Made by a program: the position numbers and the translations under genes. The notes below the pieces were generated by a model. It was not told the DNA's origin. It was given only the letters and a program-made list of their open reading frames with translations, and did not search any database. From contig JAPKZO010000012.1 in the NCBI GenBank assembly GCA_026393755.1, positions 1 through 45,439 of the forward strand: a stretch of 45,439 nucleotides of DNA, in the 5' to 3' direction. Of the stretch, positions 25,185-29,944 are shown one piece after another (the first letter of the stretch is position 1; every line of letters begins with the position of its first letter). The DNA comes from Acidobacteriota bacterium. Its GTDB lineage: Bacteria; Acidobacteriota; Vicinamibacteria; Vicinamibacterales; JAKQTR01.

Positions 25185-25979
25185 ATGCCAGAGGAATCTC
25201 CCGTCGACTTCGGCACGATGTTCCGGCAGGCGCGGGAGCGACGCGGCATGTCGCTTCAGCAGATCGCCGGCGTGACGAAGATCTCGGCTCGCGTACTCGA
25301 GGCGATGGAGCGCAACGACGTGTCGAAGCTGCCTGGGGGCATCTTCTCGCGCGCGTTCGTGCGGTCGTACGCCCGCGAAGTCGGACTCGATCCCGACATG
25401 GCCATCGAGCGGCTGATCACCGAATTTCCTGACGAGTCAGGCAAGGAGCGGCTGCCCTCTACTCGAGAGGCTGAGGACATCGAGGCGTTTGCGAGTGGCC
25501 GCCGCGTGGCGACCACAGTGCTTCAGTTGGTCGTCCTCGCGGTTCTCGTCGTCCTCGCAGTGGTTGCTGTGGTGGAGTGGCGCGCCTGCCGCGGGCCGGC
25601 GGCCTCGACGCCGACAGCGTCGACACCTGCCCAGCCCGCGTCGACGCCCGCCCCGTCCGCGTCGATGCCAGTCAGCCCGTTGCCCGTGGCAGATCTGCCA
25701 CCACGCGCTGACAAGACGGCCGCGCCTATTCAACTTGCGATTGCCGCGCGGGACGAGTGCTGGCTGTGGGTGAAGGTCGACCAGGACGTCGTCTTCGGAC
25801 GGATCCTGCGCGCCGGCGAACGCCTCTTCTACGAGGCCTACGCCAGCGTGACCCTCAAAGCCGGCAATGCGGGTAGCTTGTCGCTGACCATCAATGGCAG
25901 GCCGGCCCGTCCCCTCGGCATGCCGGGCCAGGTCGTGACCGCCACGATTACGCCCGACACGCTTGCCAGCTTTCTCTAG
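25185..25979 (+). CDS. RodZ-like helix-turn-helix membrane protein
   Basis: A 264-residue bitopic protein with the RodZ plan: N-terminal Cro-type HTH_25 domain at about 8-78 (GTMFRQARERRGMSLQQIAG; LPGGIFSRAFVRSYAREVGL), one transmembrane helix at about 108-132, a Pro/Ser/Thr-rich linker (139-165), and a C-terminal DUF4115 beta domain (about 180-264, ECWLWVKVDQDVVFGRILRAGE). RodZ links MreB filaments to the elongasome at the inner membrane. The ATG at 25185 is chosen as the first giving the typical short N-terminus; the frame extends to 25131. A TTGACA lies at 25103-25108 but its -10 is poor. Confidence 0.85.
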   Translation: MPEESPVDFGTMFRQARERRGMSLQQIAGVTKISARVLEAMERNDVSKLPGGIFSRAFVRSYAREVGLDPDMAIERLITEFPDESGKERLPSTREAEDIEAFASGRRVATTVLQLVVLAVLVVLAVVAVVEWRACRGPAASTPTASTPAQPASTPAPSASMPVSPLPVADLPPRADKTAAPIQLAIAARDECWLWVKVDQDVVFGRILRAGERLFYEAYASVTLKAGNAGSLSLTINGRPARPLGMPGQVVTATITPDTLASFL

Positions 25980-25989
25980 CCGCAGCGAG

Positions 25990-26877
25990 ATGGACGCGCT
26001 CTATCAGACGCCTCTGCTCGATTGCGTGCGGCGAGGCGAGGTGGCCGCCGACATCCGCATGCTGGCCGCGCAGGGAGTGCTGGCGCCTCGGCCACTGGAG
26101 CAACTGGCGCTGCTGGCGTGGCTCGTGCGCGACACGGACCCAGCCATTCGCCACGCGGCCGAGACAACCCTCAGCCGCATCCCGCTCTCAATGCTGGCCA
26201 GGTTTCTCACCAACCCGGACATGCCCGACGACCTGCTGGACTTCTTTGCCGGGCGCGGCATCGTTCCGGATGAGTCAGCAAGCGGCGTCGAAGATCCTGA
26301 GCTATTTGCGGCTGAGGATCGGTACGAGCTGGAGAAAGACGCGGCTCTCGATGAGCGAGAAGAGCCTGAACTGTTTGCGGTTGAGGCTCGGGACGAACCG
26401 CAGGAAGACCCCGTTCTCGACGAGCGAAATGAAGCCGCAACCGGCGAGGGCGCACAACGGCTCTCGACGATACAGCGGCTGTCCGCGATGTCGGTCACGG
26501 AGAAGATGAAGGCCGCGATGCGCGGCAACCGGGAGGCGCGATCGCTGCTCATCCGCGATTCCAACAAGCTCGTGTCGATTGCCGTGCTCGCCAGCCCCCG
26601 CCTCACCGAGCAGGAAGTGGAGACCTACGCCAGGATGGCCAGCATGTCGGAGGACGTCCTGCGGGTGATCGGCACGACGCGCGCGTGGATAAAGAACTAC
26701 GTGATCGTCCGAGCGCTGACGTCCAATCCAAAGACGCCGATTGCCCTGTCGATGGGAATGGTCAACCGGCTACTCGAGAAGGATGTGAAGGCGCTGGCCG
26801 CCGATCGCAATATCGCGGAACCGGTGAAGGCGCTGGCAAGGAAGATGATGCAAGCCGGCCAGTCGAGAAAGCGTTAG
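25990..26877 (+). CDS. Unrecognised helical protein with internal duplication
   Basis: A 295-residue soluble, largely helical protein. The N-terminal part (about 1-90) looks HEAT-like (LEQLALLAWLVRDTDPAIRHA; LARFLTNPDMPDDLLDFFA). Residues 101-147 are two tandem 23-residue acidic units with core PELFA and LDER. The C-terminal part (about 165-290) has further repeats (VSIAVLASPRLTEQEVETYA; SNPKTPIALSMGMVNRLLEK) ending in KALARKMM. No catalytic motif. The ATG at 25990 is 10 nt after the RodZ-like stop, so they are probably cotranscribed. Confidence 0.75.
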   Translation: MDALYQTPLLDCVRRGEVAADIRMLAAQGVLAPRPLEQLALLAWLVRDTDPAIRHAAETTLSRIPLSMLARFLTNPDMPDDLLDFFAGRGIVPDESASGVEDPELFAAEDRYELEKDAALDEREEPELFAVEARDEPQEDPVLDERNEAATGEGAQRLSTIQRLSAMSVTEKMKAAMRGNREARSLLIRDSNKLVSIAVLASPRLTEQEVETYARMASMSEDVLRVIGTTRAWIKNYVIVRALTSNPKTPIALSMGMVNRLLEKDVKALAADRNIAEPVKALARKMMQAGQSRKR

Positions 26878-26890
26878 GCGGAAGCGGCCA

Positions 26891-26907
26891 GACCCGGCGA
26901 TCGGGTC
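26891..26907. terminator. Short hairpin between convergent genes
   Basis: GACCCG and CGGGTC form a perfect 6-bp stem around a 5-nt loop, lying between two convergent genes and overlapping the GHMP kinase stop codon. It could end transcripts from both sides, but no U-tract is present. Confidence 0.35.
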
Positions 26908-27895
26908 ACTGGATCAGCAGCCCATCCGTTTCAATGTGGTAGTCGAGGATCCGCGCGCCGCCTGCCGAGAGAGCGGCTCGCACGCGGTCGGTGGCGTCGG
27001 GCTCCGCGAAGCAGAACAGGCATCCGCCTCCGCCGGCGCCGCAGACCTTCGCGGCGGCCGCGCCCGCCCGCCCAGCTGCGGCCATCAGGTCGTCAATCTG
27101 GGGAGTGGTCACGCCCGGCGCGAGGCGCTTGCGGTTGTCCCATTCCTGCGCGATGGCCCGCCCGACCTCGGGCCAGTCCTCGCGCTCGAGTGCCGCCCGC
27201 ATCCGCACTGCGGTGTCGCGGATGCGATCGAAGCAGTCGATCACCTCGCGATCGCCGTCCAGATGCCGTTTGGTCATCTCCCAGTTGTTGGTGCCAGAGT
27301 TGCGCGGCGCACCCGTGTACGCGAGCACGATGCGGCGTTCCAGCTCGGCCGGATCCACGCTCAACCCGACCCGGTGCACACCTTCGACACCAAGCTCCAC
27401 GGCGGCAACGCCGCCATACATGGCGGGCCGGTAATCCTGAGCGCCGGTTGGACATGCGATGGCCTGGGCCTCGATGTTCTGCGCGATGCTGAGCAGTGCC
27501 TCGGGCTCGTAGGTCACACCCTTCCACCGGGCCATCAGGCCGCAGACGGCCACATTCAGCGCCGACGATCCGGCGATGCCGGCGCCGGCCGGCGACTTGG
27601 CGGTGGTAGTCAACGTGAGGTTGTCGGCCTGGAAGAAGTGGAGCAGCCGGCCCAGCAGATCGAGTTCGCCTGGTTTGCCAAGTTCAGACCAGCGCGCCAC
27701 GTTCGTGACGCGGCCCGTGTCGGTCGAGTGGATCGCGACGCGCCCGTCGTCTCTCGCCTCAACCATCGCCTGCGCCCGCAGGCTGATCGCGGCATTCAGC
27801 GTCACCGCGCCGGGGTGAAATAGATACAACGGCCAGATGTCGATCGTGCCGCCGGCCAGGTCAATTCGCGTCGGAGCGGAGGATGTGAGACGCAC
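26906..27895 (-). CDS. GHMP-family sugar kinase
   Basis: ATP-dependent small-molecule kinase of the GHMP superfamily, 329 residues from the GTG at 27895. The N-terminal substrate motif is APTRIDLAGGTIDIWP, motif 2 (the ATP loop) is SPAGAGIAGSSAL at residues 101-113, LAYTGAPRNSGTNNWEM follows, and motif 3 is VCGAGGGGCLFCF. The pattern is nearest the heptose-phosphate/fucose kinase branch, but the substrate cannot be read. It is divergent from nagZ with only 22 bp between start codons, which suggests a sugar from peptidoglycan recycling as a candidate substrate (inference). The frame extends upstream into nagZ antisense; the GTG start is preferred because a TATAAT sits 6 nt upstream. Confidence 0.85.
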   Translation of the reverse strand: MRLTSSAPTRIDLAGGTIDIWPLYLFHPGAVTLNAAISLRAQAMVEARDDGRVAIHSTDTGRVTNVARWSELGKPGELDLLGRLLHFFQADNLTLTTTAKSPAGAGIAGSSALNVAVCGLMARWKGVTYEPEALLSIAQNIEAQAIACPTGAQDYRPAMYGGVAAVELGVEGVHRVGLSVDPAELERRIVLAYTGAPRNSGTNNWEMTKRHLDGDREVIDCFDRIRDTAVRMRAALEREDWPEVGRAIAQEWDNRKRLAPGVTTPQIDDLMAAAGRAGAAAAKVCGAGGGGCLFCFAEPDATDRVRAALSAGGARILDYHIETDGLLIQ

Positions 27896-27901
27896 GCGGC
27901 C

Positions 27902-27909
27902 ATTATAAT
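27902..27909. promoter_or_regulatory. Symmetric bidirectional -10 element
   Basis: CATTATAATG (27901-27910) is a perfect 10-bp palindrome containing TATAAT on both strands: plus strand 27904-27909, minus strand 27907-27902. It lies 8 nt from the nagZ ATG (27918) and 6 nt from the GHMP kinase GTG (27895). Both transcripts would be leaderless or nearly so. No consensus -35 on either side; the minus side has a 3 of 6 match at normal spacing. Confidence 0.65.
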
Positions 27910-27917
27910 GGGATTCG

Positions 27918-29012
27918 ATGTCGCCTTCAGGACTCCGTCGCCAGATTGGGCAGCTCGCGTTCCTTGGTTTCGCGGGCACCACCATCCCGGTCGAGTTGCG
28001 ATCGCTTGCGCGCGAATTCGCCATCGGTGGCGTTGTCCTGTTCGCGAGAAACGTCGAGGGCCCGGAACAGGTGGCCGAACTCGCGTTTGACGCCGCGCGG
28101 CTGGTGCCGGACACGCCTCTGTGGGTGGCGGTCGATCAGGAGGGGGGCCGCGTCGCTCGGATGAGGCGGCCGTTCACCGAGTGGCCGCCAATGGCCACGC
28201 TCGGGCGATCCGGCAGCGCCGATCTGGCGCGGCGCTTCGGCCAGGCGCTGGCGCGAGAGATGCGCGCGGTCGGCGTCTCGCTCGATTTCGCTCCCGTCGT
28301 CGATGTGCTCACGCGAGAGAGAAACCCCGCCATAGGGGATCGGGCGCTTTCGGGCGTCCCCGACGTGGTGGCCACACTCGGCGTCGCGATCATCGAGGCG
28401 CTGCAGGGGGAAGGTGTGGCTGGCTGCGCCAAACACTTCCCCGGTCATGGCGATACGTCGGTCGATTCGCACCACGACCTGCCAGTCGTCGACCATCCGC
28501 CGGACCGATTCGAACAGATCGACTTCGTACCGTTCCGCGCGGCCATCAGCGCCGGAGTCGCTGCGATCATGGTCGCGCACCTGCTGGTGCCGGCGTTTGA
28601 CGAGGACGTTCCAGCGAGCCTGTCGAGACGGGTGGTGACGACGGAACTCCGAACCCGGCTCGGTTTTGAAAACCTGATTCTCACGGACGACCTGGGGATG
28701 AAGGCCTGCTCCGCGAGATTCTCAGCAACGGTCGCCGCGGTCAAGGCGGTGGCGGCCGGCCACGACGGGATCCTGCTGTGTGATCCGAATCCGGAACAGC
28801 AGGCCGCCGCGCTCGAAGCCCTGGTTCACGCCCTCGAAGACGGGACGCTCCCGCATGGGCAGGTGGAAGCCTCTGTGGCGAGGCACGCGCGGTTGAAGGC
28901 GACATTTGCGCGACAGGGCGATGAGGCCCGCAGGCCAAGCGCGGGTTGGCGCGAGGTCGTCGGATGCGAAGCGCATCAGCGCCTTGCCAGCGAGATGAGA
29001 GCGTTTGCATGA
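27918..29012 (+). CDS. nagZ: Beta-N-acetylhexosaminidase, GH3 (NagZ)
   Basis: Removes N-acetylglucosamine from anhydro-muropeptides in cytosolic peptidoglycan recycling. 364 residues without signal peptide. GH3 NagZ signatures: AVDQEGGRVARM (72-82), LDFAPVVDV, KHFPGHGDTSVDSH (172-185, including the acid/base His185) and the nucleophile motif LTDDLGM (256-261). It opens the coupled nagZ-ldcA-mpl operon, a complete set for trimming and re-using muropeptides. The TATAAT 8 nt before the ATG suggests a leaderless mRNA. Confidence 0.94.
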   Translation: MSPSGLRRQIGQLAFLGFAGTTIPVELRSLAREFAIGGVVLFARNVEGPEQVAELAFDAARLVPDTPLWVAVDQEGGRVARMRRPFTEWPPMATLGRSGSADLARRFGQALAREMRAVGVSLDFAPVVDVLTRERNPAIGDRALSGVPDVVATLGVAIIEALQGEGVAGCAKHFPGHGDTSVDSHHDLPVVDHPPDRFEQIDFVPFRAAISAGVAAIMVAHLLVPAFDEDVPASLSRRVVTTELRTRLGFENLILTDDLGMKACSARFSATVAAVKAVAAGHDGILLCDPNPEQQAAALEALVHALEDGTLPHGQVEASVARHARLKATFARQGDEARRPSAGWREVVGCEAHQRLASEMRAFA

Positions 29013-29944
29013 AGACGATCAAACCACCAGCGCTCAAGCGCGGCGACCGTGTTGCCGTCCTGGCGCCCGCCAGTCCCTTTTCGCGCGAGGAGTTCGAGGA
29101 CGGACTCGCCGAGGTGCGACGGATTGGCTTCGAGCCTGTCTACGATGACCGGGTGTTTGAGCGTGACGCCTACCTGGCCGGGAGCGCCGAGACGCGGGCC
29201 CGTGCCTTTATCGACGCGTGGACCGACCCCAGCGTGCGGGCGGTCCTGACGGCACGCGGGGGGTACGGCAGCGTTCAGATTCTGCCGTTCCTCTCCCGCG
29301 ACATGCTGCGAGGTTCTCCCAAGGTGCTCGTCGGTTACAGCGATATTTCGGCACTGCTGAGCTACCTCACGACGCATTGCGGAATGACGGCCGTGCACGG
29401 TCCGACCGTGACTGGCCGGTTCGCGCGAGGCGCGGAGGGGTACGACCTGCCGTCGTTTCTGCGGACGATATGCGAGGCGGAACCGCTCGGCGAACTCACA
29501 TCGCCCGGCCTCGACTCGATGCGGGCCGGAGAAGCCGAAGGCGTCCTGGTGGGAGGCAATCTCACGCAACTGGCGGCCACGCTCGGCACGCCCTTCGCCT
29601 TTGATCCTCCCGACCGATGTGTGCTCTTTCTTGAAGACGTGAACGAGCGTCCGTATCGAGTCGATCGCCTGCTGACCCAGTTGAGCCAGGCCGGGGTGTT
29701 GTCGCGGGCGGCGGCTCTCGTCTTCGGTGAGATGGCGGGTTGCGACGAGCCGGATGGGTCGCTCGTGGCGAGAGACGCGATCGCCAGGTGCGTGCGGGAT
29801 GTTGCGGGTCCCGTGCTCGTCGGGCTGGCGTCCGGCCATACGCTTCGCCCGGCCCTCACGCTCCCGCTGGGTGTGCACGCCAGAGTGCTGGGCGGGGCGC
29901 GACCGGCGTTGATCATTACAGATGCTGCGGTGTTGCCGCGATGA
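29009..29944 (+). CDS. ldcA: LD-carboxypeptidase (peptidase S66)
   Basis: Cytosolic enzyme cleaving the terminal D-Ala from recycled tetrapeptides. 311 residues starting in the ATGA overlap with nagZ. S66 features: KRGDRVAVLAPASPF, ARGGYGSVQILPFL, the nucleophile elbow VGYSDISALLSYL, the Glu-bearing LFLEDVNERPYRVDRLL and the C-terminal His motif GLASGHT. MccF-type immunity proteins share this fold, but the context favours recycling. Confidence 0.92.
   Translation: MKTIKPPALKRGDRVAVLAPASPFSREEFEDGLAEVRRIGFEPVYDDRVFERDAYLAGSAETRARAFIDAWTDPSVRAVLTARGGYGSVQILPFLSRDMLRGSPKVLVGYSDISALLSYLTTHCGMTAVHGPTVTGRFARGAEGYDLPSFLRTICEAEPLGELTSPGLDSMRAGEAEGVLVGGNLTQLAATLGTPFAFDPPDRCVLFLEDVNERPYRVDRLLTQLSQAGVLSRAAALVFGEMAGCDEPDGSLVARDAIARCVRDVAGPVLVGLASGHTLRPALTLPLGVHARVLGGARPALIITDAAVLPR

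Follow-up and report, generated by a model that had tools for sequence, protein, structure and literature searches.

A perfectly symmetric -10 element between divergent GHMP kinase and nagZ genes, a predicted bidirectional promoter conserved in Vicinamibacterales

Analysis of the window, the whole stretch of 45,439 nucleotides, revealed that a GHMP-family sugar kinase gene and nagZ diverge from a single symmetric box. As judged from the sequence of this locus and its relatives, the box is very probably a conserved bidirectional sigma-70-type promoter, in which one perfect symmetric -10 element serves two genes with near-zero leaders on both sides.

The kinase gene (26906-27895, minus strand; Pfam PF00288/PF08544) has a GTG start codon at 27893-27895 and is predicted to be leaderless. 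Its best NCBIfam model is HddA (heptose-7-phosphate kinase), with a score far below the model cut-off. On the plus strand, nagZ (27918-29012) encodes a beta-N-acetylhexosaminidase that matches NF003740 above the cut-off in addition to Glyco_hydro_3, and starts at an ATG with a predicted leader of 0-2 nt. An LD-carboxypeptidase gene (Peptidase_S66; 29009-29944, plus strand, start inferred from the sequence) lies directly 3' of nagZ and is followed by an mpl-like ligase gene scoring just below its NCBIfam cut-off; the three genes form a set compatible with peptidoglycan recycling. An in-frame TAA (27906-27908) within the box leaves no possibility of an earlier nagZ start. The kinase frame is open further upstream (a 402-aa ORF), and thus the GTG assignment rests on homologues, where the kinase start is called GTG in 124 of 125 loci of the order. 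This near-invariance is unusually strict for a start codon, and a possible reason is the +1 base of a leaderless transcript.

The distance between the kinase GTG and the nagZ ATG had been given as 22 bp by the first-pass annotation, which is borne out by the coordinates 27895 (minus strand) and 27918 (plus strand). The gap (27896-27917) reads GCGGCCATTATAATGGGATTCG and contains the palindrome CATTATAATG at 27901-27910, which has no strand of its own and is proposed to be a shared symmetric -10 element, conserved in relatives. The same annotation had described the palindrome as its own reverse complement with a TATAAT on both strands; this is correct, and even the enclosing 12-mer CCATTATAATGG (27900-27911) equals its own reverse complement. 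The 8-bp core of the palindrome, ATTATAAT, consists of exactly two overlapping TATAAT hexamers. The predicted -10 of nagZ (27904-27909, plus strand), assigned from the sequence and its relatives, ends 8 nt before the ATG, and the predicted -10 of the kinase (27907-27902, minus strand) ends 6 nt before the GTG. The G+C content of the window is 66%, and the 10-mer CATTATAATG occurred in none of 100 shuffles of the window. In the 4.43-Mb genome to which the window belongs, ATTATAAT is present at a single site, compared to 2.9 copies expected by composition, and the chance of finding it in one given 22-bp gap is ~1e-5 by composition; thus the unlikely thing is the place of the core and not its single copy. 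A genome-wide habit of symmetric promoters in this genome was considered and rejected, as ATTATAAT occurs at one site versus 105 occurrences of TATAAT.

The canonical +1, located 7 nt beyond the last T of the hexamer, would be 27895 on the minus strand, which is the G of the GTG, and 27916 on the plus strand, so that the leader of nagZ would be 0-2 nt. The predicted start sites (27895 and 27916-27918) are 21-23 bp apart. Similar to leaderless genes, which have a TANNNT ~12 bp before the start codon and lack a Shine-Dalgarno sequence, the first T is found 12 bp before the kinase start and 14 bp before the nagZ start, and the nagZ side has no Shine-Dalgarno sequence. Motifs resembling it (4-mers, 16-5 nt before nagZ, counted on the nagZ side only) occur in 1 of 49 compact loci, defined by gaps of ≤30 bp, and not in the window.

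Regarding the -35 region, the window has GGATGT and CTGAAG at a spacer of 17, neither of which is -35-like, and a promoter scan of the window gave no match. In compact loci, the mean best match to TTGACA at spacers 15-19 is 2.38 on the plus strand, versus 2.09-3.04 at six control spacings, and 2.87 on the minus strand, marginally above the 2.30-2.70 of the controls. At longer gaps, the corresponding means are 2.10 (plus strand) versus 2.28-3.03, and 2.54 (minus strand) versus 2.49-2.74. The best single spacing on the plus strand is 13 (means 2.51 and 3.00), which is too short for a usual -35. A -35 element within the opposite gene was rejected, as these means give no convincing signal on either strand. 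The idea that -35 contacts fall inside the opposite genes thus holds for the positions at -35 spacing, which do lie there, but not for the sequence, which is not -35-like. In the same genome, TATAAT-to-ATG distances of 5-9 nt account for 18 of 51 matches versus 8.2 expected if uniform (p=7e-4); three boxes are counted twice in this set, and distinct boxes give 18 of 48. This excess close to the ATG suggests that the genome makes use of leaderless promoters. The position of the box close to both genes, the absence of a convincing -35 and, at nagZ in compact loci, the scarcity of Shine-Dalgarno sequences together suggest that leaderless transcripts are made in both directions from a promoter that has a -10 only.

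A search for nagZ in 162 genomes of the order gave 151 matches, and 149 upstream regions were read, one locus per genome. G060, in which the N-terminus is absent, and G110 were left out, and G039 was represented by the N-terminal contig L154 instead of L022. The same GHMP kinase is divergent to nagZ in 125 of the 149 loci, distributed over 12 of 15 families, and the core ATTATAAT is kept in 86 of these 125 loci, in addition to 10 of the 24 loci without an adjacent kinase. According to the first-pass annotation, a non-palindromic -10 in close relatives of the same layout would speak against the shared box; the comparison instead showed that 47 of the 49 compact gaps, from 8 families, retain ATTATAAT, at nagZ identities down to 52%. 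In one of the two exceptions, L056, the kinase start is mis-called, and the gap as judged by eye is ~41 bp with two boxes, although the locus is counted in our tables as called; the other, L067, has two overlapping separate boxes. Within the family of the window, both relatives that possess the kinase-nagZ pair (G001 and G004) have a 22-bp gap and the palindrome, and the gap bases outside the core are variable among relatives.

Outside the order, none of 64 scanned non-acidobacterial nagZ loci (66 minus L177 and L192) has ATTATAAT within 300 nt upstream, and the 10-mer was found in 0 of 31 genomes of the same class that belong to other orders and families. A kinase match is present in 25 of these 31 genomes, with identities of 28-50% that may not indicate orthologues. 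Moreover, in 28 kinase loci from these genomes, among them the partial L261 with no usable kinase start, nagZ was absent from the flanks and ATTATAAT from the 60 nt that precede the called kinase start.

The loss of symmetry goes with a private -10 element of nagZ. The 76 loci with gaps of >30 bp comprise 39 symmetric and 37 asymmetric ones. By a strict rule (TANNNT matching in no fewer than 5 of 6 positions, located 5-9 nt ahead of the called nagZ start), a private nagZ -10 was detected in 0 of 39 symmetric and 27 of 37 asymmetric loci. The rule was widened post hoc to 5-12 nt and alternative starts after the strict version had missed 10 of the 37 asymmetric loci, nine of which were seen on inspection to have a box either 10-12 nt from the start or upstream of an alternative one. 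The widened rule gave 0 of 39 versus 36 of 37, and was positive in 47 of 3800 shuffled gaps. The lone asymmetric exception, L015, has a TATAATG and a GGAGG leader, and by appearance possesses a leadered promoter of its own. In the asymmetric loci the bases completing the nagZ-strand hexamer are gone, and the kinase-strand TATAAT near the kinase start is kept in 30 of 37 and lost in 7.

To place these states on a phylogeny, we used 122 of the 125 kinase proteins, which were long enough, in a quick tree with long-branch warnings, on which the symmetry state changes 8 times by parsimony. Among 7 independent pairs on starred branches, the private box is opposite in 6 and tied in 1 (sign p=0.031); because a private box hardly fits into a compact gap, this test is partly geometric. 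The long gaps (>30 bp) alone gave 4 independent pairs, 3 opposite and 1 tied (p=0.25). That relatives are mostly symmetric unless they have a private promoter suggests that the symmetry is held by selection and not by chance.

The symmetric box is also found opposite other partners. In G002, G003 and G042 (L007, L008 and L139), which belong to two families, a small EIKRLYY gene (91 aa in L007) lies opposite nagZ on the other side of a symmetric box; elsewhere, among 34 kinase loci in which this gene was recognised, it lies behind the kinase on the same strand in 32. The partner in five f4 genomes, G012 and G089 has an N-terminus resembling that of a PolX-type DNA polymerase, an assignment that Pfam confirmed in one case (L021). 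Where both the adjacent kinase and the symmetry are absent (14 loci), nagZ has a -10 at a distance of 5-12 nt in 12 cases.

Beyond this locus, CATTATAATG is present in 74 of the 162 genomes of the order at 90 sites, compared to 13 for reversed controls. These sites comprise 54 at nagZ, 31 off-locus sites that were examined and 5 that were left out (G157, G158, G159, G161 and G038). An ORF start at a distance of 5-13 nt is seen on both sides of 6 of the 31 off-locus sites and on one side of 19, and 6 sites lack one altogether; the corresponding frequencies at random positions are 1.0%, 18.5% and 80.5%. Five off-locus sites were checked by Pfam, and three of them are compact divergent pairs with the palindrome in between, 8-11 nt away, and matches above the cut-off on both sides: aminotransferase/amidohydrolase (L271), DsbH-type thioredoxin/GAF (L281) and VWA/DHH (L284). 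In the remaining two, DUF4149 is opposite a DsbH-type match just below the Pfam cut-off (L282), and a GntR regulator at 12 nt is opposite an outer-membrane protein whose start is unsure, at 3 or 33 nt (L266).

Alternatively, the palindrome might be an operator through which a dimeric transcription factor regulates the kinase, and perhaps nagZ as well, with the TATAAT being incidental or secondary. An operator fits the perfect dyad as well as the pinning of the box to the kinase start, from which it is separated by 6 nt in 71 of the 86 symmetric loci, 5 nt in 11 and 7 nt in 4. It also fits the bases just outside the core, which are symmetric in 62 of the 86 loci versus 43.8 expected (uncorrected), mainly as CATTATAATG (45 loci) and AATTATAATT (17 loci); on the tree, this flank symmetry is not significant (5 pairs, same way 2.0, p=0.5). 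However, the next base pair further out is symmetric in 14 of 86 loci, and the core corresponds exactly to two overlapping TATAATs. An operator should be kept independently of the neighbour's promoter, yet the symmetry is absent where nagZ owns a -10 (36/37 versus 0/39), even though 30 of 37 such loci keep the kinase-strand TATAAT. Moreover, 25 of the 31 off-locus copies are 5-13 nt from an ORF start, with unrelated genes among them. We therefore consider an operator improbable.

It is similarly hard to believe that the box has one real direction, towards a leaderless kinase, with the symmetric half a by-product and nagZ transcribed from elsewhere. The anchoring of the box to the kinase agrees with this, as do families f8 and f14, in which the box is symmetric although nagZ is 17-316 nt distant. 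In these two families nagZ would need a leadered start, and Shine-Dalgarno-like motifs precede it in 3 of 24 loci of f8 and 0 of 8 of f14. However, the 30 asymmetric loci with an intact kinase box dispense with the extra half, which the kinase thus does not need. None of the 39 symmetric long-gap loci has another -10 at 5-12 nt from its nagZ, and the symmetry survives with three different partners. In addition, AT precedes two weaker private boxes (L011 and L154) but none of the 14 exact nagZ-strand TATAATs in asymmetric gaps. That chance or common ancestry would explain the box, with no selection involved, may be argued from the descent of the locus within the order and the non-independence of related rows, but is scarcely credible given an 8-bp core in 47 of 49 compact gaps whose other bases vary, state changes that follow the presence of a private box (6 of 7 independent pairs, one tie), and the absence of ATTATAAT within 300 nt of the 64 scanned non-acidobacterial nagZ loci.

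We thus favor a bidirectional promoter, and propose that ATTATAAT would present a perfect TATAAT to RNA polymerase in either orientation. Bound one way, the polymerase would start at or next to the kinase GTG on the minus strand; bound the other way, it would start 0-2 nt before the nagZ ATG on the plus strand. As no -35 was found on either side, the box and the discriminators would carry the signal. Two polymerases on the box would presumably exclude each other sterically, and selection may hold this architecture in much of the order and release it where nagZ has its own -10. A broader proposal can be made only tentatively, and we are inclined to doubt it: the perfectly symmetric leaderless promoter might be a recurrent selected architecture in the order, of which the kinase/nagZ box would be the most conserved case, outlasting the loss or replacement of its partner. 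It might be kept since a shared box locks both genes into mutually exclusive, ratio-controlled expression, and other gene pairs might use the 10-mer likewise.

Prokaryotic bidirectional promoters are reportedly the subject of work by Warman et al. in 2021. In the available portions of two later papers (Middlemiss et al. 2023, PMC10268837; Warman et al. 2026, PMC12825309), symmetric -10 elements that can be bound in two orientations and give divergent transcription are described, in agreement with the first-pass annotation, which had treated such elements as known; the present box is alike in having a symmetric -10, here a perfect palindrome. The definition of the Grainger laboratory requires divergent starts 7-25 bp apart on opposite strands (PMC10268837, as far as excerpted), and the separation of 21-23 bp predicted here is inside this range. 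According to the same excerpts, the commonest form, which is the most frequent but not a required one, is near-symmetric, with starts 18 bp apart and coinciding -7 and -11 positions (PMC10268837). Our box departs from this geometry of paired -7T and -11A, as the plus-strand -11 is 27905 and the minus-strand -7 is 27902, 3 bp apart; the two hexamers overlap by 4 bp, so that both are perfect TATAATs and the -7 and -11 do not coincide. Also unlike the common form, the start codons of both genes here coincide with the predicted transcript start or are no more than a few nt away from it, and the symmetry is retained in much of an order.

In the accessible part of PMC12825309, bidirectional promoters are called ubiquitous, the competition between two polymerases is said to depend on promoter strength, and 24% of those in E. 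coli are located in the space between two divergent genes, each of which is transcribed into an mRNA. The use of a single symmetric box by two coding genes is therefore not new in itself; what the annotation called unusually compact is its combination with near-zero leaders.

Leaderless genes have been inferred in 3 of 3 Acidobacteria genomes, at 13.3% of genes on average (Zheng et al. 2011, PMC3160421, portion available), and most leaderless genes of Deinococcus radiodurans have no classical -35 upstream (Zhong et al. 2025, PMC12340547, likewise in part). Similar to the leaderless TANNNT/TATAAT genes in these portions (PMC3160421, PMC12340547), the present pair has a -10 ~12 bp before the start codon and no Shine-Dalgarno sequence; unlike them, two genes share one box on opposite strands. 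The word 'divergent' does not occur in the main text of PMC3160421, nor do 'divergent' and 'bidirectional' in that of PMC12340547. A partial search of the open-licence literature found no description of a perfectly symmetric -10 common to two near-leaderless genes and retained across an order. Thus, near-zero leaders on both sides, perfect consensus and order-wide retention are what set this predicted promoter apart as a new form of a known type. Relatives with and without a private nagZ promoter provide a natural experiment on what maintains promoter symmetry, and a gap of 22 bp, with near-zero leaders and nothing recognisable as a -35, represents a minimal construct for two-way polymerase competition.

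Two further observations concern other genes. The 10-mer has a second recurrent site, 6-7 nt before DUF4149-like genes of several families (L276, L279, L280, L282, L291 and L292), with Pfam run on three of these six loci for the assignment. In the window, a 304-aa ORF (25963-26877) is convergent to the kinase and matched neither Pfam nor NCBIfam models at E 0.001, and an N-terminus similar to that of this ORF occurs near nagZ in G002.
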